From the NCBI RefSeq assembly GCF_004345615.1, contig NZ_SLWK01000002.1, forward strand, positions 310,001 through 374,000: a stretch of DNA of 64,000 nt, written 5' to 3'. The stretch is from Natronoflexus pectinivorans. Its GTDB lineage: Bacteria; Bacteroidota; Bacteroidia; Bacteroidales; Marinilabiliaceae. This document shows, in pieces, positions 5,833-34,444 of this stretch (its first letter is position 1; each line of letters opens with the position of its first letter). Below the pieces are notes generated by a model. It was not told where the DNA came from. It saw nothing but the letters and a program-made list of their open reading frames with translations, and did no database searches. Made by a program: the position numbers and the translations under genes.

Positions 5833-6528
5833 ATGACAAAACTAACAAAGAATAAGAAGTTAGCTTTAGAAAAGATCGATTCCGACAAGTCGTATACCAT
5901 TCAGGAGGCAGCCAATCTTGTTAAAGACATCACCTTTACTAAGTTTGATGCATCTGTGGATATCGACATCCGTTTAGGCGTAGATCCCCGGAAAGCTAAT
6001 CAGATGGTTCGTGGTGTTGTTACGCTTCCTAACGGAACCGGAAAAGAGACCAAAGTATTGGTGCTTTGTACGCCGGATAAGGAAGATGAAGCAAAAAATG
6101 CCGGTGCTGATTTTGTTGGGCTTGATGACTATATTGAGAAAATCAAAGGTGGTTGGACCGATGTGGATGTTATCATCACTATGCCTAGCGTTATGGGTAA
6201 AGTTGGGGCTCTTGGACGTATCCTTGGACCTCGTGGCTTAATGCCAAACCCTAAAAGCGGTACCGTTACCATGGATATTGGAAAAGCTGTTGCCGAGGTG
6301 AAAGCTGGTAAGATTGATTTCAAAGTAGATCGCTATGGAATTATTCATACCACAGTCGGTAAAGTCTCTTTTACTCCTGAAAAACTAGTAGAAAACGTTA
6401 AGGAGTTTGTAGGAATGGTTCAAAAGTTGAAGCCTTCTTCAGCTAAAGGTACTTATATCAAGAGCATTTATCTGTCAAGTACCATGAGTCCCGGAATTCG
6501 GATTGAAACCAAATCTTTGGAGGTTTAA
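5833..6528 (+). CDS. rplA: 50S ribosomal protein L1
   Basis: This 231-residue protein has the uL1 two-domain fold with the signature RVLGP-like segment ([17 protein letters not shown], near residue 130) and the C-terminal region [22 protein letters not shown]1 forms the mobile stalk that moves E-site tRNA. The frame is open from a TTG at 5821, but the ATG at 5833 ([15 protein letters not shown]) gives the family N terminus and is preferred. It lies in the rplK-rplA-rplJ-rplL block. Confidence 0.97.
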
Positions 6529-6553
6529 TTTTTAATTTTAGAAATCTGGAAAC

Positions 6554-7072
6554 ATGAAAAAGACAGAAAAAGCTACGATAATTAACGAACTTGTAAACAT
6601 CATCGGTGAGTATAGCCATTTTTATATTGCAGATACTCAAGGATTAAATGCAGGTTCTACAAGTGATCTTCGTCGTCTCTGTTTTAACAAGGAAGTTAAA
6701 ATGATGGTTGTGAAAAATTCACTTTTTCAAAAAGCCATCGAGCAGAGTGAGAAAAATATAGAAGGCCTTGATGAGGCTTTAAAAGGCACATCGGCTGTAC
6801 TTTTCTCCAATACAGGAAATTTACCTGCTAAATTGATTAAAGAATTCCGCAAAAAAGCAACCATTCCAATTTTTAAAGGTGCTTTTGTCGAAGAATCAGT
6901 TTATATTGGAGAGAGTCAATTGGATACATTATCCAATATTAAGTCTAAAGAGGAGTTGCTGGGCGATGTTATTGGCCTGTTGCAATCACCAATGAAAAAT
7001 GTTGTTTCGGCACTTCAATCTGGTGGATCAACTATTTCAGGAATCCTCAAGACACTAGAAGAGAGAAAATAA
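6554..7072 (+). CDS. rplJ: 50S ribosomal protein L10
   Basis: This 172-residue uL10 protein has the N-terminal rRNA-binding domain (MKKTEKATIINELVNIIGEY, VKMMVVKNSLFQKAIE) and a C-terminal helix (LLQSPMKNVVSALQSGGST) that carries L7/L12 dimers. It anchors the stalk that recruits translational GTPases. It is 25 bases after rplA and 36 bases before rplL. Confidence 0.97.
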   Translation: MKKTEKATIINELVNIIGEYSHFYIADTQGLNAGSTSDLRRLCFNKEVKMMVVKNSLFQKAIEQSEKNIEGLDEALKGTSAVLFSNTGNLPAKLIKEFRKKATIPIFKGAFVEESVYIGESQLDTLSNIKSKEELLGDVIGLLQSPMKNVVSALQSGGSTISGILKTLEERK

Positions 7073-23377: not shown

Positions 23378-24160
23378 TTATTGATTAATCCACTCCTTAA
23401 AACTTCTTGCTCTTTCCCTGCTTACCACAATTTTTTCAGGGGTTTCGGGTCTGGTTTTAACTATGAGCTTGCCATTGAACCAATTTTCAATTTTATGAAT
23501 TATTTCAATGTTGATGATGTATTGCCTGTTGGCACGATAAAAATAGGAAGGATTTAGTTCGTCTTCAAGTTTTTCCAGCGGAAGGTCAATGATGTGGTGA
23601 GTTCCATCAAAAGTTACGGCTGTGGTAACTTTTTGAGAGCTGTGAAACCACGCCACATCTGCAATTTTTAGTTTGGTATATCCATCTATGGCAGGAACAA
23701 GAATTCTCGATCTGAAAGTTTTTTTTCCTTCTGTGAGTGCATAAGCAAGGTCTTTGATATCGGTAATGTTGGTGGTATGTATTTGAGAAGCTTTCAGCTT
23801 CTCAAACTTTTCTATGGCACTTTTTAAATTTTCCGGTCGCACCGGTTTTAATAAATAATCTATGCTGTTTACCTTAAACGCCTGAATGGCATATTCATCA
23901 TAAGCCGTTGTGAATATAATCATTGAATTCACCTCCGTTTGGTCAAAAATCTCGAAGCTGATGCCATCCGATAACTGAATATCCAAAAACATCAAATCCG
24001 GATGTGGATGGCTTTGCAGCCATTCCACGGTTTCTTCCACTGCGGTTGTGGCGATGACAATCTCCCAATCGGGTCTGATTTTTTCTATCATCCCTTTTAA
24101 AAGCCTTTGTGTAGGAATTTCGTCTTCTGCTATTAATACGGTTGTTTTTATTGTTTGCAT
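23378..24160 (-). CDS. LytTR-family response regulator
   Basis: This 260-residue protein has a receiver domain at residues 5-120 with phospho-acceptor D60 (LMFLDIQLSD), the T/S switch in IIFTTAYDEY and the Lys in LLKPVRP. A LytTR DNA-binding domain lies at about 155-258 (FYRANRQYIINIEIIHKIENW). It follows the kinase gene after 9 bases on the same strand, so the two form a LytS/LytT-like pair. LytTR regulators bind direct repeats in promoters. The targets are unknown; the nearby curli-like operon is a candidate only by location. Confidence 0.93.
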   Translation of the reverse strand: MQTIKTTVLIAEDEIPTQRLLKGMIEKIRPDWEIVIATTAVEETVEWLQSHPHPDLMFLDIQLSDGISFEIFDQTEVNSMIIFTTAYDEYAIQAFKVNSIDYLLKPVRPENLKSAIEKFEKLKASQIHTTNITDIKDLAYALTEGKKTFRSRILVPAIDGYTKLKIADVAWFHSSQKVTTAVTFDGTHHIIDLPLEKLEDELNPSYFYRANRQYIINIEIIHKIENWFNGKLIVKTRPETPEKIVVSRERARSFKEWINQ

Positions 24161-24169
24161 GATGCTTTG

Positions 24170-25234
24170 TTATTTCTCGTTTCCCAATAACGGTAAAGTC
24201 ACAATGAACTGTTTCTCGTTATGAATGATATCCACCTCCTTGTCTGATAGGAATTTATATCTTTTTATGATGTTCTCAAGACCTGTTCCAGTGGAGTAAG
24301 TTGTGGTTTTAGGGTTTATGTTGTTGGTTACGCTTAATGTCTGGTTATTGTTGCTGGTTATTTCAATAACTAACGGGTCTTTTTCGCTCGCACGATTGTG
24401 TTTTATAGCGTTTTCAATCAGTATTTGAAGGGTCATGGGCGGCACGTACAAGGTGAGATGACCGGATTCGATATTGGTTTGCATCTGTAATGCATTTCCC
24501 ATCCTGATATTATGAAGATACCTGAAATCATCGAGAAAATCCAGTTCTTCTTTGAGTGTGGTGGTGAGATTGTTCCGTTGCTGAAGTACGTAACGATAAA
24601 CATCGGACATTTTTTGTGCAAACTCAACAGCACCCGGTGGATTGTATTGAATTTCAGAAATTAAAACACTAAAACTATTGAACAGAAAATGCGGATTCAG
24701 CTGGTTTTGCAGAGCCATATAGTCCGATTTCAGCTTGGCCTGTTTCAGTTCCTCATTTTCAATGAGCGACTGTCGCCAATTGTAGGCAAAGCTACGCATA
24801 ATCAATACGCTGTTGAAACCAAGAATAAAGATTGTTCCAAAAATAAAGGTGATGATGGCATCTTTGGACAGAGAGCGGGGTGCCAGCAGTGAAAAAATAA
24901 CGGTTACAGCAATCAGCCACAGCACACTGATGAATACCTGAATTCTGATTCGTTTGGTGATTTGTGAGAACCAAGGCACTCTTTGGTTTAGTATTCTGTT
25001 GATGATGATGTTGCCTTCGCTCAGCATGTTGATGCCTACCACCGCTAAGATAATAGAGAGTGGCTTGCTGTAGATGTCATCCACATCCAGAACCGCACCT
25101 AAAAAAAGCATTGAAACAATACCCAAAGCTGAAACATAAGCCATTCTCCTGATGGTTGCCATCAATCCGGGATTCATGATTTGATCCTGAAGTTTTTTGA
25201 AATCGTGGGTATTGAATTTTTCTGCTGTATTCAT
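24170..25234 (-). CDS. LytS/YehU-type sensor histidine kinase
   Basis: This 354-residue membrane kinase has about four transmembrane helices in residues 35-150. The His_kinase (5TM/LytS-type) motif follows, with QNQLNPHFLFNSFSVL and phospho-acceptor H182. A C-terminal HATPase domain has LQILIENAIKHN and GTGLENIIKRY. It has no periplasmic sensor domain, so the signal is probably sensed in or at the membrane. It is encoded directly before its LytTR partner. Confidence 0.92.
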   Translation of the reverse strand: MNTAEKFNTHDFKKLQDQIMNPGLMATIRRMAYVSALGIVSMLFLGAVLDVDDIYSKPLSIILAVVGINMLSEGNIIINRILNQRVPWFSQITKRIRIQVFISVLWLIAVTVIFSLLAPRSLSKDAIITFIFGTIFILGFNSVLIMRSFAYNWRQSLIENEELKQAKLKSDYMALQNQLNPHFLFNSFSVLISEIQYNPPGAVEFAQKMSDVYRYVLQQRNNLTTTLKEELDFLDDFRYLHNIRMGNALQMQTNIESGHLTLYVPPMTLQILIENAIKHNRASEKDPLVIEITSNNNQTLSVTNNINPKTTTYSTGTGLENIIKRYKFLSDKEVDIIHNEKQFIVTLPLLGNEK

Positions 25235-25359: not shown

Positions 25360-26847
25360 TTAATCAAACCAATATGGATAATCTGCATCTCCAATGAACT
25401 TTTTTCTTCGCGAACCATCGGGATTCATCATTTTAATGGAACCTATTGCTGTAGTGGAGTTGGATCTGTTTGTGAAAACAATATGGCCTCCATTGGGTGA
25501 ATACATTGCATTTAAGTCATTGGTTCCACTGGATTTTCCCTGTGAAAGATTGGTCAGTTGCCCCGAATTTGTGTTCATTCGATATATTTTGGCATCCAGC
25601 ATTCTTCCCACAGGAGAGTCTGTTCCGCTCATGTCCATAGAGAACAATATGTGGACATTGTCAGGATGAACTGCCAAGCCTTGTATGGCATAATCACTGT
25701 TTTTATAAACTTGTTGCATGTTACTGCCATTGGCGTTGAAGGAGTATATTTGTCTGTTTTTAATGGTGTTACCAATGATCATGACAAACAATCCTGAACC
25801 ATCAGGTTTATATATGACTTCCCTGAAATGAGAACCTTCAGGAGCGACTGCCAGAACTTGCATGCCGGTACCGTCCGGGTTGATTCTGTACAATTTATCG
25901 AAACTTGTAAACACCAGATGGGAACCGTTTGGAGCCCAGTCATATTCAATTTTTTGGTGAAAGTAGCTTCCGATTGGGACTGTCGTTAACCTTTTTACAT
26001 CTGAACCATCCAGGTTCATGGTATAGAGTTGTGGAGCGATGTTTTGAGTAGATTCAAATGCAATTCTTGTTCGCTGATTGTTTATTTTGGCATTCCAGAT
26101 ATGGTGTTTGCTGTTTGTAATTTGAATTATATTGGCTCCTAGTGTGTCTGTTACAAACAGCTGAGATAATTCATTCTCAACTCTTGAAAACAAGATCTGA
26201 TTTTTAGGGAATGATTGAGTTTTGAACTGACGAATTTCTGAAAACACTCGTCCTGCTTCGTTATAGGCCTGAACTTGCCAGTAGTACCAGGTCTCAAACT
26301 TGAGGTTGTTGATGTGATAGAACGTGTCTTCCAAATTTGTATAAATCATTGGATTGCCGAAATGGCCTGATTCATAAACAAGAAGGTCGTAGAATGTAGA
26401 GTCTGTATTCTCTGCTTGCCATGAAATGGTTATTTTTGTGCTGTTTTGGTTACTGTTATTCAGTGGCCAGTGTTTTGACGTGAAAGCAGGTGCATGCTCT
26501 GCCGTGAGATTCTTTTCTATCATAATCTCTACATCCGTTGTTTGGTTATGAAGCACACTAATGGTTACGCTTTGGGATTTAAACCCGCTTTTCCCGGCAA
26601 TGACATTGTATTCCCCTTCATGGATGTTTTCAATATAAAACATCCCTGTTTCATCTGTTCTGACACTTTCACTGTATGGATGGGTTGTGACTCTGACATC
26701 AGGAATGGGATCAAAATTGACGTTGTCAATGACATATCCTTTCAGTTTTCCGGTTAGAGGTGTCTCCAATCTTTCTTCACATCCTGAAAATATAATCATT
26801 GTCAGGAAAATTATTACGTACCAGTTATGAGTGGATTCTATTTTCAT
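25360..26847 (-). CDS. Lipoprotein with carboxypeptidase-regulatory, FN3 and beta-propeller domains
   Basis: This 495-residue protein has a lipoprotein signal (IIFLTMIIFSGC, lipobox Cys about residue 23). A carboxypeptidase-regulatory-like domain follows at about 32-112 (LKGYVIDNVNFDPIPDVRV, GEYNVIAGKSGF), then a fibronectin type III-like domain at about 115-210 (WYYWQVQAYNEAG). The rest is a TolB/DUF5050-like propeller with repeats such as RIAFESTQ..QLYTMNLDGSDVKRL, LYRINPDGTGMQVL and IVFTNRSN..SIKMMNPDG. It is likely anchored in the outer membrane and binds protein or glycan. It lies 179 bases after csgG on the same strand and may be the last gene of the curli-like locus or separate. Confidence 0.85.
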   Translation of the reverse strand: MKIESTHNWYVIIFLTMIIFSGCEERLETPLTGKLKGYVIDNVNFDPIPDVRVTTHPYSESVRTDETGMFYIENIHEGEYNVIAGKSGFKSQSVTISVLHNQTTDVEIMIEKNLTAEHAPAFTSKHWPLNNSNQNSTKITISWQAENTDSTFYDLLVYESGHFGNPMIYTNLEDTFYHINNLKFETWYYWQVQAYNEAGRVFSEIRQFKTQSFPKNQILFSRVENELSQLFVTDTLGANIIQITNSKHHIWNAKINNQRTRIAFESTQNIAPQLYTMNLDGSDVKRLTTVPIGSYFHQKIEYDWAPNGSHLVFTSFDKLYRINPDGTGMQVLAVAPEGSHFREVIYKPDGSGLFVMIIGNTIKNRQIYSFNANGSNMQQVYKNSDYAIQGLAVHPDNVHILFSMDMSGTDSPVGRMLDAKIYRMNTNSGQLTNLSQGKSSGTNDLNAMYSPNGGHIVFTNRSNSTTAIGSIKMMNPDGSRRKKFIGDADYPYWFD

Positions 26848-27026: not shown

Positions 27027-28439
27027 TTATTCGTTTTTAAAAAGATTGAATCTGTATGCTATCCCAAGGCTAAACCCCCATATTCGATCGTTGTATTTTC
27101 CATGAACCATTCCATCAAATTCATCATTTAAAAAATAGTGACAATCTGCCGAGACTCTAATGAACAGTGGTAGTTCCTGCAACTTCCATTGATACCCTGC
27201 GCCAAAATGAATAAACTGAAATATGTTGTTGTTAAAGGAAGGGTCATCGTAAAACCATTTTTCTCCATGTTGGTAGTTGATTCCATATCCGGCTTTCAGA
27301 AATGGCGAGTTTCTATAATGAGGGAAAATGGGGAGGTTCAACGTTAAACTCGACCAGCTTACATTTGAATTGAAATTTCTTTTTGCAGCTACCTTGCCGC
27401 TCCCTATATTTAATGAGAGATTAATGGGTTTGTTTTCAAAGAAACCCAGGCTCACTTCCGATCCCGGCTTAACAACTCCGGAGGCTACGTCGCTGTCAAG
27501 AATCAATCCTCCCATATTTAAACCAACGCAAAACATCTTGTCGTTTTGCATGGAGATATTTCCAAGATGGTCGGTAGCGTAGCTCATCTCCTTTTCTTGT
27601 CTGTAACTCTCAAAAACAGGCATGTTTATATGATCCGGATCCAGAAGCTCCCACAGGTTGTCTTCTATGCCTTCAACAATTAATGCCAGCACGGCTTTGT
27701 CTATGGCCTCCTGAACCGCAACAAATGAAGGCTCGTTATATGTATAGCCGGTTTCAGCCTCCAGAAGTTTTTTTAGCGAAACAAACCTGAAAACGCCCAT
27801 GTCCATTTTTTGTGAAAGGATTGTTTTGGAGGCATGTACTGTTTTAAGGATTCTGCCGGTGCTGGTTGACACCGCTCTTAAATAGACTGTAACCTGATCT
27901 TCCCGATATTGGCCGGAAGCACCGGTTCCGAAGTATCTGGCTCCAACTCCTCCTGTACGAATGTTGGTCTCATAAGCAATGATTCCACCTTCAATAATGA
28001 CTCCTGCGTAGAGTAATGGCGGAAGGTTTCCGCTCCCCTGAAACTGCTCTTGAGTCTGACGAATGATGCGACGTTCATTCAACAGATTCGATAAACCTTC
28101 GCGTTCTATTGTAATGAACCAGTTGGACTCTTCCAGAGATTGTATGAGTACAGAAGTGGCTCCCTGAGTGACAACCGTTGACCAGCTTGAGGAGTGTTCT
28201 GTTAATTTGTACTGTCCCGTTTGATCTCTGAAGCTATAAACTGCTGCATAAATTCGTTCACGGGGAGGAGGCAGTTCACTGATCTCTTTGTGATGTACCC
28301 TGGAGAATTCTCCAAACCTCGCCGGCATTGTTTTAAGTGGGTGTTTAAAAGTACCGGCACAGCCCGTTAGAATATAAATGGTGATTAGGGAAAGCGTGGC
28401 AAATAGTGCACTCCTTTCGTATTTGTGGTGTAGGAACAT
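27027..28439 (-). CDS. csgG: CsgG-type curli secretion pore with extra C-terminal beta-barrel-like domain
   Basis: This 470-residue lipoprotein (YILTGC lipobox near residue 27) carries the CsgG domain in residues about 28-275. The domain has RIYAAVYSFRDQTGQYK, WFITIEREGLSNLLNERRIIRQ, GVIIEGGIIAYETNIRTGGVGARY, QVTVYLRAVSTSTGRILKTV and the closing helix IVEGIEDNLWELL. E. coli CsgG is 277 residues and ends near this helix. Here another 190 residues follow with alternating short strands and an aromatic end (WGFSLGIAYRFNLF), like a small outer-membrane beta-barrel. CsgG forms the nonameric curlin pore; the role of the extension is unknown. It is the last of the csg genes in the operon, 48 bases after csgF. 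Confidence 0.92.
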   Translation of the reverse strand: MFLHHKYERSALFATLSLITIYILTGCAGTFKHPLKTMPARFGEFSRVHHKEISELPPPRERIYAAVYSFRDQTGQYKLTEHSSSWSTVVTQGATSVLIQSLEESNWFITIEREGLSNLLNERRIIRQTQEQFQGSGNLPPLLYAGVIIEGGIIAYETNIRTGGVGARYFGTGASGQYREDQVTVYLRAVSTSTGRILKTVHASKTILSQKMDMGVFRFVSLKKLLEAETGYTYNEPSFVAVQEAIDKAVLALIVEGIEDNLWELLDPDHINMPVFESYRQEKEMSYATDHLGNISMQNDKMFCVGLNMGGLILDSDVASGVVKPGSEVSLGFFENKPINLSLNIGSGKVAAKRNFNSNVSWSSLTLNLPIFPHYRNSPFLKAGYGINYQHGEKWFYDDPSFNNNIFQFIHFGAGYQWKLQELPLFIRVSADCHYFLNDEFDGMVHGKYNDRIWGFSLGIAYRFNLFKNE

Positions 28440-28487: not shown

Positions 28488-28922
28488 TTAAAAATATGGA
28501 ACCGTCACGGTGGTTTTATCACCTGTTGCCGTATCTAGTATTTCTATTTCCAGACCGCCTAATCCTGGTGTTATTTCTATTTCATAACTACCAACATTGT
28601 AATGTCCTTCGTTAAAACCTTCACTAAAATAGTTGCGCATCAGGTTTCGGCTTAACTGGCTCAGTATTTGTCGATTCAGATTCTCTTCAAAGTCCTTGAG
28701 TGGATCCCGGGTCGCTCTTTCTGCTGGCTTTGCTTCGTGGGTATTCTGCACTTGTGCTGAACTTAAAAGCCATTGATAGTTCAGATAGTTTCCACCGAAT
28801 GCCGGATTTACCGGCTGATATACGAAGTTTTGCGCCAATGATGGTCCGGTTGAAACCAAAATCGTTGCGAAAATGGCAAATGCGCGAATCAACTTCCTGG
28901 ATGGAGATGATGGTTGTGACAT
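28488..28922 (-). CDS. csgF: CsgF-type curli assembly factor
   Basis: This 144-residue secreted protein has a signal peptide ending around residue 30 (ATILVSTGPSLAQ). It then has the CsgF signature NFVYQPVNPAFGGNYLN and LLSSAQVQN, which in E. coli CsgF inserts into the CsgG pore. The C-terminal part (YEIEITPGLGGLEIEILD, KTTVTVPYF) matches the family end. CsgF couples the secretion pore to the nucleator CsgB at the cell surface. It lies between csgE and csgG. Confidence 0.93.
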   Translation of the reverse strand: MSQPSSPSRKLIRAFAIFATILVSTGPSLAQNFVYQPVNPAFGGNYLNYQWLLSSAQVQNTHEAKPAERATRDPLKDFEENLNRQILSQLSRNLMRNYFSEGFNEGHYNVGSYEIEITPGLGGLEIEILDTATGDKTTVTVPYF

Positions 28923-28957: not shown

Positions 28958-29497
28958 TTAAAACAGTCCGGTTCCGCTGAAATCATCGCTTTCAAGCTCT
29001 TTTTGAATGAGATCATAATTTATGAAATATGACTCAGCCTGTTGTAAAGCTTTTTCAACGCTTTGTCTTAATTGTTCCTGGTTTGGCCTTACAAAAGATC
29101 GGAAAATATACCGATCTTCGACTCTTATCCATATTTGAGTACCCATACCGGGCATGGGTTGCTCTCCTATAAACATATTTACACCTCTTACATTAGATGG
29201 GTTTTCCCACTCCGAATCAAACATCCGGAAAAAGTCCCCACCGATTTTTGTAATGGTTTCATCAAAAACAAAATTCATGAACTCAACGGCCTCTATGGAG
29301 TTTTCGTTGTTGTTTCCATTCTGATCACTATTACCAGAAAATAATTGTTTCAGAAGTTCAAGTGTTGCATTGTTTTGGATGGAATCATTTTTCTCCTGTG
29401 ACTCCTGATTCTGACCTGTGGCATTTATGCGCATTGCTGTTATACAAAGCATCGTAAGGTAAAATGCAATCAATTTGGTGGAAACAACTATGTTCAT
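28958..29497 (-). CDS. csgE: CsgE-type curli specificity factor
   Basis: This 179-residue protein has an N-terminal signal segment (LIAFYLTMLCITAMRINA), then an Asn/Gln-rich linker. The CsgE domain runs from about residue 65: VFDETITKIGGDFFRMFDSEW, MPGMGTQIWIRVEDRYIFRSF and a C-terminal helix AEQ-type segment (VEKALQQAESYFINYDL). CsgE caps the periplasmic side of CsgG and selects curlin substrates. The linker makes it longer than E. coli CsgE (129 residues). It sits 35 bases before csgF. Confidence 0.92.
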   Translation of the reverse strand: MNIVVSTKLIAFYLTMLCITAMRINATGQNQESQEKNDSIQNNATLELLKQLFSGNSDQNGNNNENSIEAVEFMNFVFDETITKIGGDFFRMFDSEWENPSNVRGVNMFIGEQPMPGMGTQIWIRVEDRYIFRSFVRPNQEQLRQSVEKALQQAESYFINYDLIQKELESDDFSGTGLF

Positions 29498-30053: not shown

Positions 30054-30635
30054 TCAGGGATAGGCTTTTTGATGCTCAATAATTATTCTCATGCCACTAC
30101 TGCCGTGTTGGTGAATCTGGTAGGCAGGAGATGTTCCATCTTTTTCGATCTGGATTACTTCGTGGTTGTTCCCTTCCTGGATAATGTCCAGCTTCATTCC
30201 ATTGCCTTCCAAATCCTGTATGACTCGGTTGTCATTCCCCAGTTGTAAAACCCTGATCAGATTCTCCTCTCCAACCAGAACACCCTGGTAGAAATTAGCA
30301 TCACCATATTGCAATAGTCCAAAACTGTTGCGATCGCCGGTTTGTTCCCATGTGGCGGTATTGTTATGTCCTTCCTGAATGACAATGCTATGATTATTGG
30401 CTGCAGGAATTGCTCCCGGAAATATCAATTGATACTCCTTGTTTTGAATAAACTCATTGATGTTTACAATGGAGCCTTCGCTTTCGGACTGAATTATTCC
30501 ATTGAGCAAGCCGAGTTGTCGCAATTCAACAACCTCTTCCAGCTGTTCATCTTTTTCGGTTTGCTGGGCAGTTAGCGTGGTTGTAGCTAACATACACATA
30601 AGTAGTGTGAAGAAAATCAGAAGTGGATTTTGCAT
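30054..30635 (-). CDS. csgB: CsgB-like minor curlin / nucleator
   Basis: This 193-residue secreted protein has a signal peptide (LIFFTLLMCMLATTTLTAQQ). It has an acidic N-terminal region and then about nine degenerate half-repeats, for example NNHSIVIQEGHN, NTATWEQTGDR, NSFGLLQYGDA, NLIRVLQLGND and KLDIIQEGNN. The last unit ends in basic/aromatic residues (MRIIIEHQKAYP), reminiscent of the less regular end of E. coli CsgB that anchors to the cell. The ATG at 30635 is preferred over an upstream in-frame TTG (30674), which lies inside the preceding hairpin. It follows the large curlin gene by 103 bases. Confidence 0.85.
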   Translation of the reverse strand: MQNPLLIFFTLLMCMLATTTLTAQQTEKDEQLEEVVELRQLGLLNGIIQSESEGSIVNINEFIQNKEYQLIFPGAIPAANNHSIVIQEGHNNTATWEQTGDRNSFGLLQYGDANFYQGVLVGEENLIRVLQLGNDNRVIQDLEGNGMKLDIIQEGNNHEVIQIEKDGTSPAYQIHQHGSSGMRIIIEHQKAYP

Positions 30636-30664
30636 TGTTGAATTATTAAGGAGTTGTTGAATGA

Positions 30665-30694
30665 ATTCCCGCAAGCAATTTTGCTTGCGGGAAT
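30665..30694 (-). other. Strong intra-operon hairpin between csgA and csgB
   Basis: Perfect 14-base arms at 30665-30678 and 30681-30694 (core CCCGCAAGCAA) leave a 2-base loop, effectively a 12-13 bp stem with a 4-6 base loop. No T-run follows on the minus strand, so it is more likely an mRNA 3' end stabiliser or processing site for csgA mRNA than a full terminator. Confidence 0.7.
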
Positions 30695-30738: not shown

Positions 30739-32289
30739 TTAAAATTGAGTTTGTACGATTGTTGAACTGTTTCCAAATCCATTTTGAGTGGAAGATGCAA
30801 AGTTAGCAACGCCGGTTTGTGTTTGTTTAGCTATGTTAGCTGTACCAAATTGTTCAATTAGTGCCGTATTGCCTGCTCCATCTTGAGTTTGGAATGCTTT
30901 GTTGCAATCTCCATTCTGAAGAATTGTAGCTTCATTACCCATACCCCATGCACCGGAATGGTTTTGTGTTTGTTCAGCAAGGTTTCCAGCACCACCCTCT
31001 TGGGTAATGGTTGCTACATTTCTGTACTGTCCAACGATAAAACCTAATCCTGAAGTTTGTGTTTGAATAGCTTCGTTATTGGATGATGATGCCAATTGAT
31101 TAATTGTGGCATTGTTTTTTGCGCCAATCTGAGTTTGTAATGCATAATCATCAGCTCCGCTTTGATTAATTAATGCAACACTGTATGTGCTTCTCATTTG
31201 CTGGTTTTGTATTGCTTCGTTACCAGTAGCTCCATCATTTTGGTTTATGGTGGCAAGGTTTCCGGAGCCATCCTGAACCTGAAGAGCTGAATTATTATGT
31301 CCTGCCTGCATAATAAATGCAGTATTGAAGCTGTTTTCATAATTCTCAGCATCTCTTAGGTCTTGCTTTTGGATAGCTGTATTTCTGTTCCCTATTTGAT
31401 CAATTGTTGCATTATTACCTAGTCGCTCCTGATATTGTTCGGCTACGTTTTTAGAACCACTTTGATCAATAGAAGCTTCGTTACCTCCATATAATCGATC
31501 AACTACGTTTTGCTCCTGTAAAGCAGAGTTTAAGCTTCCACTTTGATCAATATCAGCAAGATTACCTTCTGCATATTGAGTTTGTGTTGCTACGTTAACA
31601 TCTCCTGATTGAAATATTATCGCTTCATTGTCTTTTCCATCCTGATATTGTTCTGCTTTATTGTAGTCCCCAGTCTGAGTAATCAAAGCATCGTTTTCCT
31701 CACCATGCTGAGTTTGTTTAGCATCATTAACATACCAAAAACTAGGACTTGATTGCTGATTAATGACAGCTATATTTTTATCTCCTTCCTGGTATTGAAC
31801 AGCAGTGTTTTTACCATGGATATCTTGATTTATGAATGCTTCATTCTCATCACCTTTTTGAGTCTGAGTAGCTCTGTTAAGGATGGTTGCGTCCCCTTCA
31901 GTATCCTCATTTGCTCCCTTTTGAATAATTGAAGCCTCATTACCATCTCCTCTCTGATATTGTGTCGCACTGTTTCTCCATCCCAGTTGATCAATAACCG
32001 CACTGTTTCCTTGTCCAATCTGCTCTTGCGTGGCTATCACATTCTGAACCCCATATTGTGTAATGGTAGCAGTGTTTACGGCTGGTCCACTTTCGTTGGT
32101 TTGCTTTTGATCTGCTACATTGAGTTTTCCGGTTTGAACAACCTCAGCGTTATTGTGCGAACCGTTCTGAGCAGTTGTCGCTTCATTTGATGTTCCCTCT
32201 TGGGTATGAGTTGCTTCATTGTTATATTGAGCAAATAGCAATCCTGAGCATAGGAATGTTGCTGCTGTAAATAAAAATAACTTTTTCAT
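30739..32289 (-). CDS. csgA: Giant CsgA-like major curlin (about 40 half-repeats)
   Basis: This 516-residue secreted protein has a signal peptide (FLFTAATFLCSGLLFAQ). Almost the whole mature part is then made of about 40 units of the type N-x-A-x-x-x-Q-x-G, each about 11 residues. In E. coli CsgA, five 19-23-residue repeats form a beta-solenoid amyloid, so this protein would have about 20 repeats. The units alternate between an Ile type (NEASIDQSG, NLADIDQSG) and a Gln type (NVATQTQYA, NSATQYQRG). The few long loops include SSPSFWYVN, DLRDAENYENSF and SGLGFIVGQYR. The C terminus is NSSTIVQTQF. Only two Cys are seen (one in the signal peptide, one near the end). It is first in the csg operon and is expected to be the main fibre subunit. 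Confidence 0.93.
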   Translation of the reverse strand: MKKLFLFTAATFLCSGLLFAQYNNEATHTQEGTSNEATTAQNGSHNNAEVVQTGKLNVADQKQTNESGPAVNTATITQYGVQNVIATQEQIGQGNSAVIDQLGWRNSATQYQRGDGNEASIIQKGANEDTEGDATILNRATQTQKGDENEAFINQDIHGKNTAVQYQEGDKNIAVINQQSSPSFWYVNDAKQTQHGEENDALITQTGDYNKAEQYQDGKDNEAIIFQSGDVNVATQTQYAEGNLADIDQSGSLNSALQEQNVVDRLYGGNEASIDQSGSKNVAEQYQERLGNNATIDQIGNRNTAIQKQDLRDAENYENSFNTAFIMQAGHNNSALQVQDGSGNLATINQNDGATGNEAIQNQQMRSTYSVALINQSGADDYALQTQIGAKNNATINQLASSSNNEAIQTQTSGLGFIVGQYRNVATITQEGGAGNLAEQTQNHSGAWGMGNEATILQNGDCNKAFQTQDGAGNTALIEQFGTANIAKQTQTGVANFASSTQNGFGNSSTIVQTQF

Positions 32290-32641: not shown

Positions 32642-33358
32642 TTAAACCATTATATCTCTTTGTTTTATGTGTTCTTTAAATTTATTCAGGTAGGTTCTTC
32701 CAATGGGAATGTTGGTTGAGTTAATGTGTATGCTTTCCCTGGAAAAAAAATCGATTTTTGAAACCGCCACGATAAATGATTTATGAACCCTTATGAATTC
32801 ATGACTGTCGAGTTTTTTCCCTAGGTACTTAAGATTTTGATGCGTGATGTGGCTTCTCTCTTTGGTGTGTATTTTGGCATAATTATCTAATGCTTCAATA
32901 AAGAGTATTTCTGAAGTTTCTATTTTTATGTTTTTGTACTCAGATTTCACAACAATGTACTCCTGACTGCCATTGATTATTTGTTGTTTTAGCTTTTTAT
33001 ATTCAATGATTTCCCTGGCTTTGCAAACTGCTTGTTGAAATCTCTTAAAACCGTACGGTTTTAAGAGATAGTCTGTGATGTTGAGTTCGAATCCATCAAA
33101 AGCATAATGTTTATATGAAGTAGTGAAAATGATCATGCTTTCATTGGAAAACTCCCTTGCAATTGCCAATCCGGAAATCTCCGGCATTCCAATATCAAGA
33201 AAAATAATATCCGGTTTATTGTTTTTTAAATGTACCAGCGCATCCCATGGATTGTTAAATGCTTCTGTGAGTTCAATAAAGGAGATTTTTTTGCAGAATT
33301 TTTCCAGAATAGATAATGAAAGGTTATCGTCGTCTATGGCGATGCAAATCAAATTCAT
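32642..33358 (-). CDS. LytTR-family response regulator (orphan, near csgA)
   Basis: This 238-residue protein has a receiver domain with D55 (IIFLDIGMPEISGL), IIFTTSYKHY and LLKPYGF. It also has a LytTR domain (EFIRVHKSFIVAVSKIDFF, INSTNIPIGRTYLNKF). It is encoded 350 bases upstream of csgA on the same strand with no kinase next to it. It is closely similar in sequence and layout to the neighbouring regulator at 33752-34444, so the two look like a local duplication. Control of the csg operon is a reasonable guess by location. Confidence 0.92.
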   Translation of the reverse strand: MNLICIAIDDDNLSLSILEKFCKKISFIELTEAFNNPWDALVHLKNNKPDIIFLDIGMPEISGLAIAREFSNESMIIFTTSYKHYAFDGFELNITDYLLKPYGFKRFQQAVCKAREIIEYKKLKQQIINGSQEYIVVKSEYKNIKIETSEILFIEALDNYAKIHTKERSHITHQNLKYLGKKLDSHEFIRVHKSFIVAVSKIDFFSRESIHINSTNIPIGRTYLNKFKEHIKQRDIMV

Positions 33359-33751: not shown

Positions 33752-34444
33752 TTACTTTACTTTTTCATGAAAATTTTGAGCATATGATCGGCCTATTGGA
33801 ATTTCCCGTCCATTAATGCGGAGTTGATCACGTGAAAAGTACTCAATTTTTGAAACCGCTACGATGTATGATTTATGTACCCTTACAAAATCTCCATTTA
33901 ATCTTTTGCTGAAGTGTTTAAGATTTTGAAGCGTCAGGTAATTTCGTTTTGCGGTGTGAATTTTTACATAATTATCAAGGGCTTCAATATATTGTATTTG
34001 TGAAAGCTTTAGTTTTATGTTTTTGTACCCCGATTTAATTATCACATGATTGTTGTCTTCAAAGGATAGCTTTTTCAAAGCCTTGAATTCAATACGATCC
34101 TTTGCCTTACATACCGCCTGAAAAAACCTTTCAAAATTAAGAGGCTTTAAAAGATAGTCGGCTGCATTCAGTTCAAAACCTTCAAGAGCAAAATCTTTAT
34201 GGGAAGTGGTAAAAATAATGGTGGTCTTATGATTGTAAATTTCAGCAATTCTAATGCCTGATATCTCAGGCATATTGATGTCCAGAAAAACAATGTCCGG
34301 ATTTATTCTGTCCAGGTGAGGCAATGCATCTGTAGGGTTTTCATAAGCTCCTCTTAGCCGCAAACTTGGAACTTTTTGGCAATACTTCTTTAAAATTGAT
34401 AAACAAAGGGGATCATCATCAATGGCAACACATTTCAGTAACAT
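33752..34444 (-). CDS. LytTR-family response regulator (orphan, paralogue)
   Basis: This 230-residue protein has a receiver domain with D55 (IVFLDINMPEISGI), IIFTTSHKDF and LLKPLNF. It also has a LytTR domain (DFVRVHKSYIVAVSKIEYF, INGREIPIGRSYAQNF). The pattern of residues is nearly shared with the regulator at 32642-33358, including the same MPEISG and HKS-IVAVSKI segments. No cognate kinase is adjacent; the nearest one in the window (24170-25234) already has its own partner. Confidence 0.92.
   Translation of the reverse strand: MLLKCVAIDDDPLCLSILKKYCQKVPSLRLRGAYENPTDALPHLDRINPDIVFLDINMPEISGIRIAEIYNHKTTIIFTTSHKDFALEGFELNAADYLLKPLNFERFFQAVCKAKDRIEFKALKKLSFEDNNHVIIKSGYKNIKLKLSQIQYIEALDNYVKIHTAKRNYLTLQNLKHFSKRLNGDFVRVHKSYIVAVSKIEYFSRDQLRINGREIPIGRSYAQNFHEKVK

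Follow-up and report, generated by a model that had tools for sequence, protein, structure and literature searches.

Published curlins span 4 to 62 repeats, and the distribution has secondary peaks around 15 and 22 (PMC10192328, section 6), and curlins of up to 22 repeats and up to 529 residues are described in PMC3521004. In a curlin strand, the residues at positions 1, 3, 5, and 7 face the core, and those at positions 2, 4, and 6 face away from it (PMC10192328, section 6). For the inner positions psi1 and psi2, the motif of Sleutel et al. 2023 gives A, I, V, L, F, S, or T, and Gln is absent from the residues listed there (PMC10192328). The same source distinguishes centrosymmetric, non-centrosymmetric, and degenerate classes of curlins and describes Gln ladders, at Gln-7 and Gln-18, for the curlin R15.5 (section 7). 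The order of subunits in the CsgA structure 8enq is disputed, and the current fibre model is stated in PMC12345197.

Analysis of the window, a stretch of 64,000 nucleotides of Natronoflexus pectinivorans DNA, revealed a csgA gene for the major subunit of curli, a fibre of bacterial biofilms. We read its product as a curlin of an established kind whose core deviates from the published motif by a buried glutamine ladder on one sheet. The best explanation overall, to which we assign a probability of about 0.75, is a secreted curli CsgA folded as a two-sheet solenoid, in which a buried Gln column on one sheet lies beside the Gln-7 column.

The curli locus and the repeat array of CsgA

The csgA product matched the Pfam model Curlin_rpt (PF07012) with 152.3 bits (cut-off, 20.7) in 8 stretches. 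By this score and by its encoding together with csgG, csgE, csgF, and a second curlin, it belongs to the curlins (CsgA/CsgB). The genes are located on one strand in the order csgA, csgB-like, csgH/csgC-like, csgE, csgF, and csgG, with csgA in first place, and this run makes up a complete curli system (Table 1). In the csgB-like reading frame, an ATG 13 codons in from the TTG is, in our judgment, the likelier start. A regular Gln column was not found in the sequence of the csgB-like product, in which two degenerate strands can be read with Gln at position 5.

A CsgH/CsgC-like gene is present in this Bacteroidota curli operon, and relatives of it are located beside csg genes in four further genomes (G001, G005, G606, and G780); its reading frame gave no Pfam match. 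The Bacteroidetes genera covered in PMC3521004 are described as being without csgC and, Spirosoma excepted, without csgD. The C-terminal stretch of CsgG resembles an outer-membrane beta-barrel domain (PF13505; E = 0.0013, below its cut-off), and the CsgG reading frames of the panel described below (n = 21) have 456 to 503 amino acids. Two LytTR response regulator genes lie directly upstream of csgA, and a sensor kinase and a response regulator are encoded downstream of csgG. A relative of the upstream regulator was detected beside csgA in G001, G008, and G005; of these genomes, G001 and G008 also have the kinase/regulator pair. The upstream regulators and the downstream pair are candidates for a replacement of CsgD. 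The frequency of promoter-like sites did not exceed that in shuffled sequences.

Table 1. Features of the curli locus and of the csgA reading frame in window coordinates
Feature	Position	Strand	Evidence
LytTR response regulator	33752..34444	(-)	
LytTR response regulator	32642..33358	(-)	
csgA, major curlin, 516 aa, 40 strands = 20 curlin repeats	30739..32289	(-)	ORF; PF07012, E = 2.9e-45; unit table
First repeat, aa 24-41, position 5 = H, T (neither Gln nor Ile)	32167..32220	(-)	Unchanged in G001
Strict Gln/Ile alternation, 35 strands, aa 57-491, 18 Gln and 17 Ile rungs	30817..32121	(-)	Unit table; conserved in G001
11-strand core fragment, aa 188-309	31363..31728	(-)	AlphaFold model, 85-row alignment
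Last repeat, aa 496-513, position 5 = S, I, pattern broken	30751..30804	(-)	Unchanged in G001
csgB-like minor curlin, 206 aa from TTG	30054..30674	(-)	PF07012, E = 1.2e-7; CsgB model, E = 1.3e-7, below cut-off
CsgH/CsgC-like chaperone, 139 aa	29613..30032	(-)	NF041112, 34.9 bits (cut-off 35, just missed)
csgE	28958..29497	(-)	PF10627, E = 1.9e-21
csgF	28488..28922	(-)	PF10614, E = 4.8e-37
csgG, secretion channel, 470 aa with C-terminal extension	27027..28439	(-)	PF03783, E = 3e-67, aa 57-264
Sensor kinase and response regulator	23378..24160, 24170..25234	(-)	Named from sequence alone

Parsing of the csgA product into N-x-A-x-x-x-Q units revealed 40 strands between residues 24 and 513; a further parsed unit (residues 15 to 21) was dropped, as it lies inside the presumed signal peptide. 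Read along these strands, position 5 is H, T, and V, then follows the strict Gln/Ile alternation over 35 strands, and the series ends with S and I. Counted from the presumed mature start, repeats 2 to 19 have Gln on their second strand, and repeats 3 to 19 have Ile on their first. The original prediction had been made of about 40 half-repeats, or about 20 curlin repeats, with some 35 units of unbroken alternation, and the parsing agrees with it on both counts, the run being exactly 35 strands long. The term "giant curlin" used there does not hold given the published range of repeat numbers (PMC10192328), and 20 repeats is an ordinary size for curlins outside the Enterobacteria.

Within each parity of the 35-strand run, positions 3, 5, and 7 are invariant, and positions 2, 4, and 6 carry 2.2 to 3.2 bits. 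Shuffling of the 18 Gln and 17 Ile residues would give strict alternation with a probability of 2.2e-10, a null model that is too easy because a curlin repeat consists of two strands. Comparison with the published motif placed the protein outside it, with Gln as psi2 in 18 of the 40 strands. The protein falls into the non-centrosymmetric class, with position 5 being Ile on one strand and Gln on the other through the 35-strand run and positions 1, 3, and 7 being alike; the degenerate class would also suit, given arcs of up to 14 residues.

Position-5 Gln in other curlins

Of the genomes searched by profile, 7 of 393 in the order and 11 of 395 in the class contained curlin repeats, and a search with the window CsgA gave a match in 8 of 61 relatives. 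Curlins with at least 5 regularly spaced neighbours formed a panel of 65 proteins from 23 different genomes, of which 49 proteins (17 genomes) had been found by profile and 16 by the search with the window CsgA. A DNA pattern scan of named genomes added at least 118 stretches, each chosen for containing a Gln-then-Ile neighbour pair, with 196 curlins among the matches listed. The non-redundant union comprised 229 of 291 proteins.

In the panel, a Gln strand was followed by a Gln strand, on the opposite sheet, in 1 of 143 cases (within-protein shuffle mean, 0.31), and Gln recurred two strands on, on the same sheet, in 86 of 113 cases (within-protein shuffle, 0.32). The single panel exception (G561; SVMVQAQ and DIILQEQ) involves units without the leading Asn. 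The profile-found genomes, taken without the window and G001, gave 1/89 for the next strand and 49/65 for two strands on; the corresponding values were 0/849 and 552/694 for the pattern-found curlins among the matches listed and 1/858 and 556/701 for the 229 non-redundant curlins. These results show that curlins with Gln at position 5 put it on one sheet only, as far as sheets can be predicted from the order of strands. A parser artefact was rejected as the cause of this exclusion, since a plain regular expression applied to 263 proteins without the parser agreed, with 0 Gln-Gln and 318 Gln-Ile neighbours. Other identical pairs on successive strands were found among the 229 curlins in 68 of 318 (Thr), 382 of 910 (Val), and 291 of 1030 cases (Ile). 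Ser-Ser (1/138) and Ala-Ala (9/270) pairs were also rare; thus, part of the exclusion may stem less from a peculiarity of Gln than from each turn requiring a large hydrophobic residue.

The position of Gln along the array and the residue at position 3 were also compared. The terminal strands of 85 Gln-rich curlins carried Gln in 36 of 340 cases, whereas 1000 rotations gave 117 on average and never fewer than 99. Among the matches listed of the pattern-found set, Ala occupied position 3 with a frequency of 0.82 on the partner strands and 0.63 on the Gln strands, and it was favoured on the partner strand in 78 proteins versus 20, with 30 equal. The same bias in the panel (8 versus 4 proteins, 2 equal) was not significant (p = 0.39).

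A column, defined as at least 4 successive Gln on the same sheet, was present in 13 of the 65 panel proteins and 10 of the 23 genomes; restricting the count to the profile-found genomes gave 10 proteins (n = 49) and 7 genomes (n = 17). Most panel curlins (52/65) lack it, and 13 of the 23 genomes have none of at least 4 Gln. According to the record titles, several of which denote metagenome bins, such columns occur in Bacteroidota, Pseudomonadota, Nitrospirota, Thermodesulfobacteriota, Campylobacterota, Myxococcota, and Balneolota. The expectation that homologues would share the alternation of the window CsgA was correct for some of them: the series is exact in G001, has breaks in G008, and is reduced to a short stretch in G005, a genome of the same family, and in one of the five curlins of G012. 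It failed for G020, G026, G035, and the other four curlins of G012, which have no column of 4 Gln.

A CsgG tree was built from 21 rows, representing 20 of the 23 panel genomes; CsgG was not found in the examined pieces of G312, G382, and G561. The Gln-column label needs 5 changes on this tree, at least 3 of which are forced by well-supported branches, and it is weakly clustered (40 of 500 shuffles were as low). The clade comprising the window, G001, G008, and G005 consists entirely of Gln-column members (support, 100), and the adjacent clade of four relatives does not.

Two further observations concern individual groups. Many Flavobacterium curlins (e.g., L062, L063, L068, and L076) have a Gln column of about 4 rungs followed by His at position 5, and their position-5 series end with QAQHSVV, as though column length and end residue were fixed. 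The gene of an uncultured Flammeovirgaceae (L057, positions 5904 to 6763), which encodes 25 Gln rungs, contains DNA tandem arrays of 81, 162, and 324 bases and is perhaps a Gln-column curlin that is still growing by duplication.

The distribution also bears on an alternative in which the columns are a code for sheet identity and register, marking the sheet to which each strand belongs, preventing half-turn slips in a protein of 40 strands, and limiting co-assembly with other curlins. Gln-column proteins are indeed longer than the others (median of 36 units, n = 13, versus 25 units, n = 52; p = 0.014, without control for phylogeny), the column stays clear of the terminal strands as if the ends must remain compatible, and cross-seeding specificity has been put forward by Sleutel et al., as a speculation, as a possible effect of the curlin classes (PMC10192328, Discussion). 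However, curlins of 42 to 57 parsed units without the column exist in G012, G020, G035, and G762, so that length does not require the column, and its role as a requirement for long curlins is unsupported. We regard such a code as possible but doubtful.

Structure models and selection on the core

A full-length model of CsgA was generated with AF2 from an 8-row alignment (pLDDT, 80.6; pTM, 0.81). All 40 units were in strands, no other strand occurred between units, and DSSP fused two neighbouring strand pairs (residues 46 to 64 and 72 to 91). No curli structure was among the matches of this model, and the best alignments were to other beta-helices; sparse alignments often yield the other handedness for curlins (PMC10192328, section 8). 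The model of the core fragment had a pLDDT of 93.6, with its 11 units forming 11 separate strands. Only 2 of its 118 Foldseek matches had E values of 0.001 or lower, and both were CsgA, from E. coli (8enq_A) and Pontibacter korlensis (8c50_A). VIA comparison gave a Z of 19.5 and 1.2 Å over 109 residues for 8enq_A and a Z of 14.5 and 0.9 Å over 118 residues for 8c50_A; in Foldseek's own superpositions, the rmsd was 12.5 Å and 10.2 Å, respectively. FapC (9u4u_A) reached a Z of only 4.8. Likeness to the two-sheet beta-solenoid of solved CsgA was therefore found for the 11-strand core fragment, the full-length model being without a CsgA match. The rows of the 85-row alignment had been picked for Gln on the same sheet, and its Gln asymmetry is thus present by construction.

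If each turn has two strands, as it does in solved CsgA, one sheet receives all 18 Gln of the run and the opposite sheet all 17 Ile, and because positions 1, 3, 5, and 7 face inward in curlins, both residues are read as buried in one core. Position-5 Ile and Gln are thus probably buried on opposite sheets, an assignment made by strand counting. The original prediction of a beta-solenoid with two chemically different sides, to be checked with AlphaFold, agrees with the models in having the units in strands of a solenoid and, by strand counting, Ile and Gln on different sheets. Both residues are read as facing the core, however, and an Ile-lined face and a Gln-ladder face are not supported. Two outer surfaces, one lined by Ile and one by Gln and serving separate contacts, would fit this difference in sheets, but position 5 shares its parity with N1, A3, and Q7, which point inward in curlin structures and models (PMC10192328), and the variable positions are 2, 4, and 6, so that we consider this picture very improbable.

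Comparison with G001, a genome of the same genus whose CsgA is 87% identical to that of the window, revealed that none of the 160 core-facing residues (four in each of the 40 strands, at positions 1, 3, 5, and 7) differs, in spite of 39 synonymous changes at these sites. The outward sites (positions 2, 4, and 6) differed in 25 of 120 residues. Position 5 taken by itself showed 0 amino acid changes in 40 sites and 10 synonymous changes, and the dN/dS values were 0 for the core, 0.33 for the outward sites, and 0.21 for the loops. These results confirm that the Gln/Ile pattern in the window CsgA is real and selectively maintained, and they bear out the earlier claim that its strictness goes beyond random drift and implies selection on both the Ile and the Gln column. 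No tandem array was detected by TRF between positions 26000 and 37000. The third-position identity of same-residue codons in units of the same parity was 0.41 to 0.60 depending on distance, compared to 0.46 in random draws. The CsgA repeats are old and not recent copies. Recent amplification of one 22-residue unit, with the alternation as a copying artefact, was rejected as next to impossible, since, although L057 with the longest alternation seen carries tandem arrays, the window csgA has no such array (nor does L091), its synonymous codons are near random, positions 2, 4, and 6 vary, and position 5 has accumulated only synonymous changes relative to G001.

A proposed Gln ladder and its relation to known curlins

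In the preferred reading of a buried one-sheet ladder, CsgA would leave the cell by way of CsgG, and its subunits would stack head to tail to give an extracellular functional-amyloid fibre. Each repeat would contribute an N-x-A-x-I-x-Q strand to one sheet and an N-x-A-x-Q-x-Q strand to the other. The position-5 residues would then stack into a 17-rung Ile column on one sheet and, on the other, into an 18-rung second Gln column beside Gln-7. By analogy with the Gln ladders of R15.5, each buried Gln side-chain amide may bond to the Gln residues one turn above and one turn below. A buried Gln would be tolerable only with amide bonds in the same column, and the column would for this reason be all-or-none along the fibre axis, which would explain its strictness. 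The opposite sheet would have to keep a hydrophobic or small residue at the same level, and Gln would hence be barred from both sheets at once, as a second Gln across would bring a pair of large polar side chains together at the centre of the core. The generic end repeats may allow the subunit to dock on CsgB and on the next subunit.

A second buried row of Gln in an amyloid core ought to be costly, and the window CsgA nonetheless keeps 18 in a perfect column. The one-sheet rule, with 1 exception in 858 neighbour pairs, links sequence to the architecture of functional amyloids in a simple and testable way. The Gln column is also a marker for a curlin subclass that is absent from the published motif, and a description of such a column was not found in the open-licence PMC literature. 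It offers a handle on why bacteria differ in the co-assembly of curli subunits and in fibre robustness. A more far-reaching design rule for functional amyloids, in which a second buried Gln ladder is confined to one sheet, is internal with generic ends, has repeatedly been gained or lost in different phyla, and serves as a code for sheet identity that sets fibre stability and determines which subunits can co-polymerise, is put forward tentatively, and we think it unlikely to hold as a whole.

Among solved structures, P. korlensis CsgA R15.5 (8c50) is the best sequence match of the window CsgA (E = 2.6e-24). Both are long curlins with two N-x-psi-x-psi-x-Q strands per repeat. R15.5 is a centrosymmetric example with a hydrophobic psi1/psi2 core and a terminal half repeat (PMC10192328), whereas the window CsgA has Ile or Gln as psi2 and 40 strands. 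E. coli CsgA (8enq), which is non-centrosymmetric, resembles the window CsgA in having unlike core residues on the paired strands of each repeat; it has 5 repeats and an asymmetry of bulky versus small hydrophobic residues (PMC10192328), in contrast to Ile versus Gln in the window CsgA. The one-sheet Gln column itself is shared with the curlins of two uncultured Flammeovirgaceae (L057 and L106), with 25 successive rungs each, with that of an unclassified bin (L091, 13 successive rungs), and with those of a Bacteroidales bin (L083) and a Sulfurovum (L123), with 9 rungs each. Unlike the pure Ile column of the window CsgA, the partner column in L057 and L106 mixes I, V, A, and other residues, and L057 differs further from the window csgA in its DNA tandem arrays.
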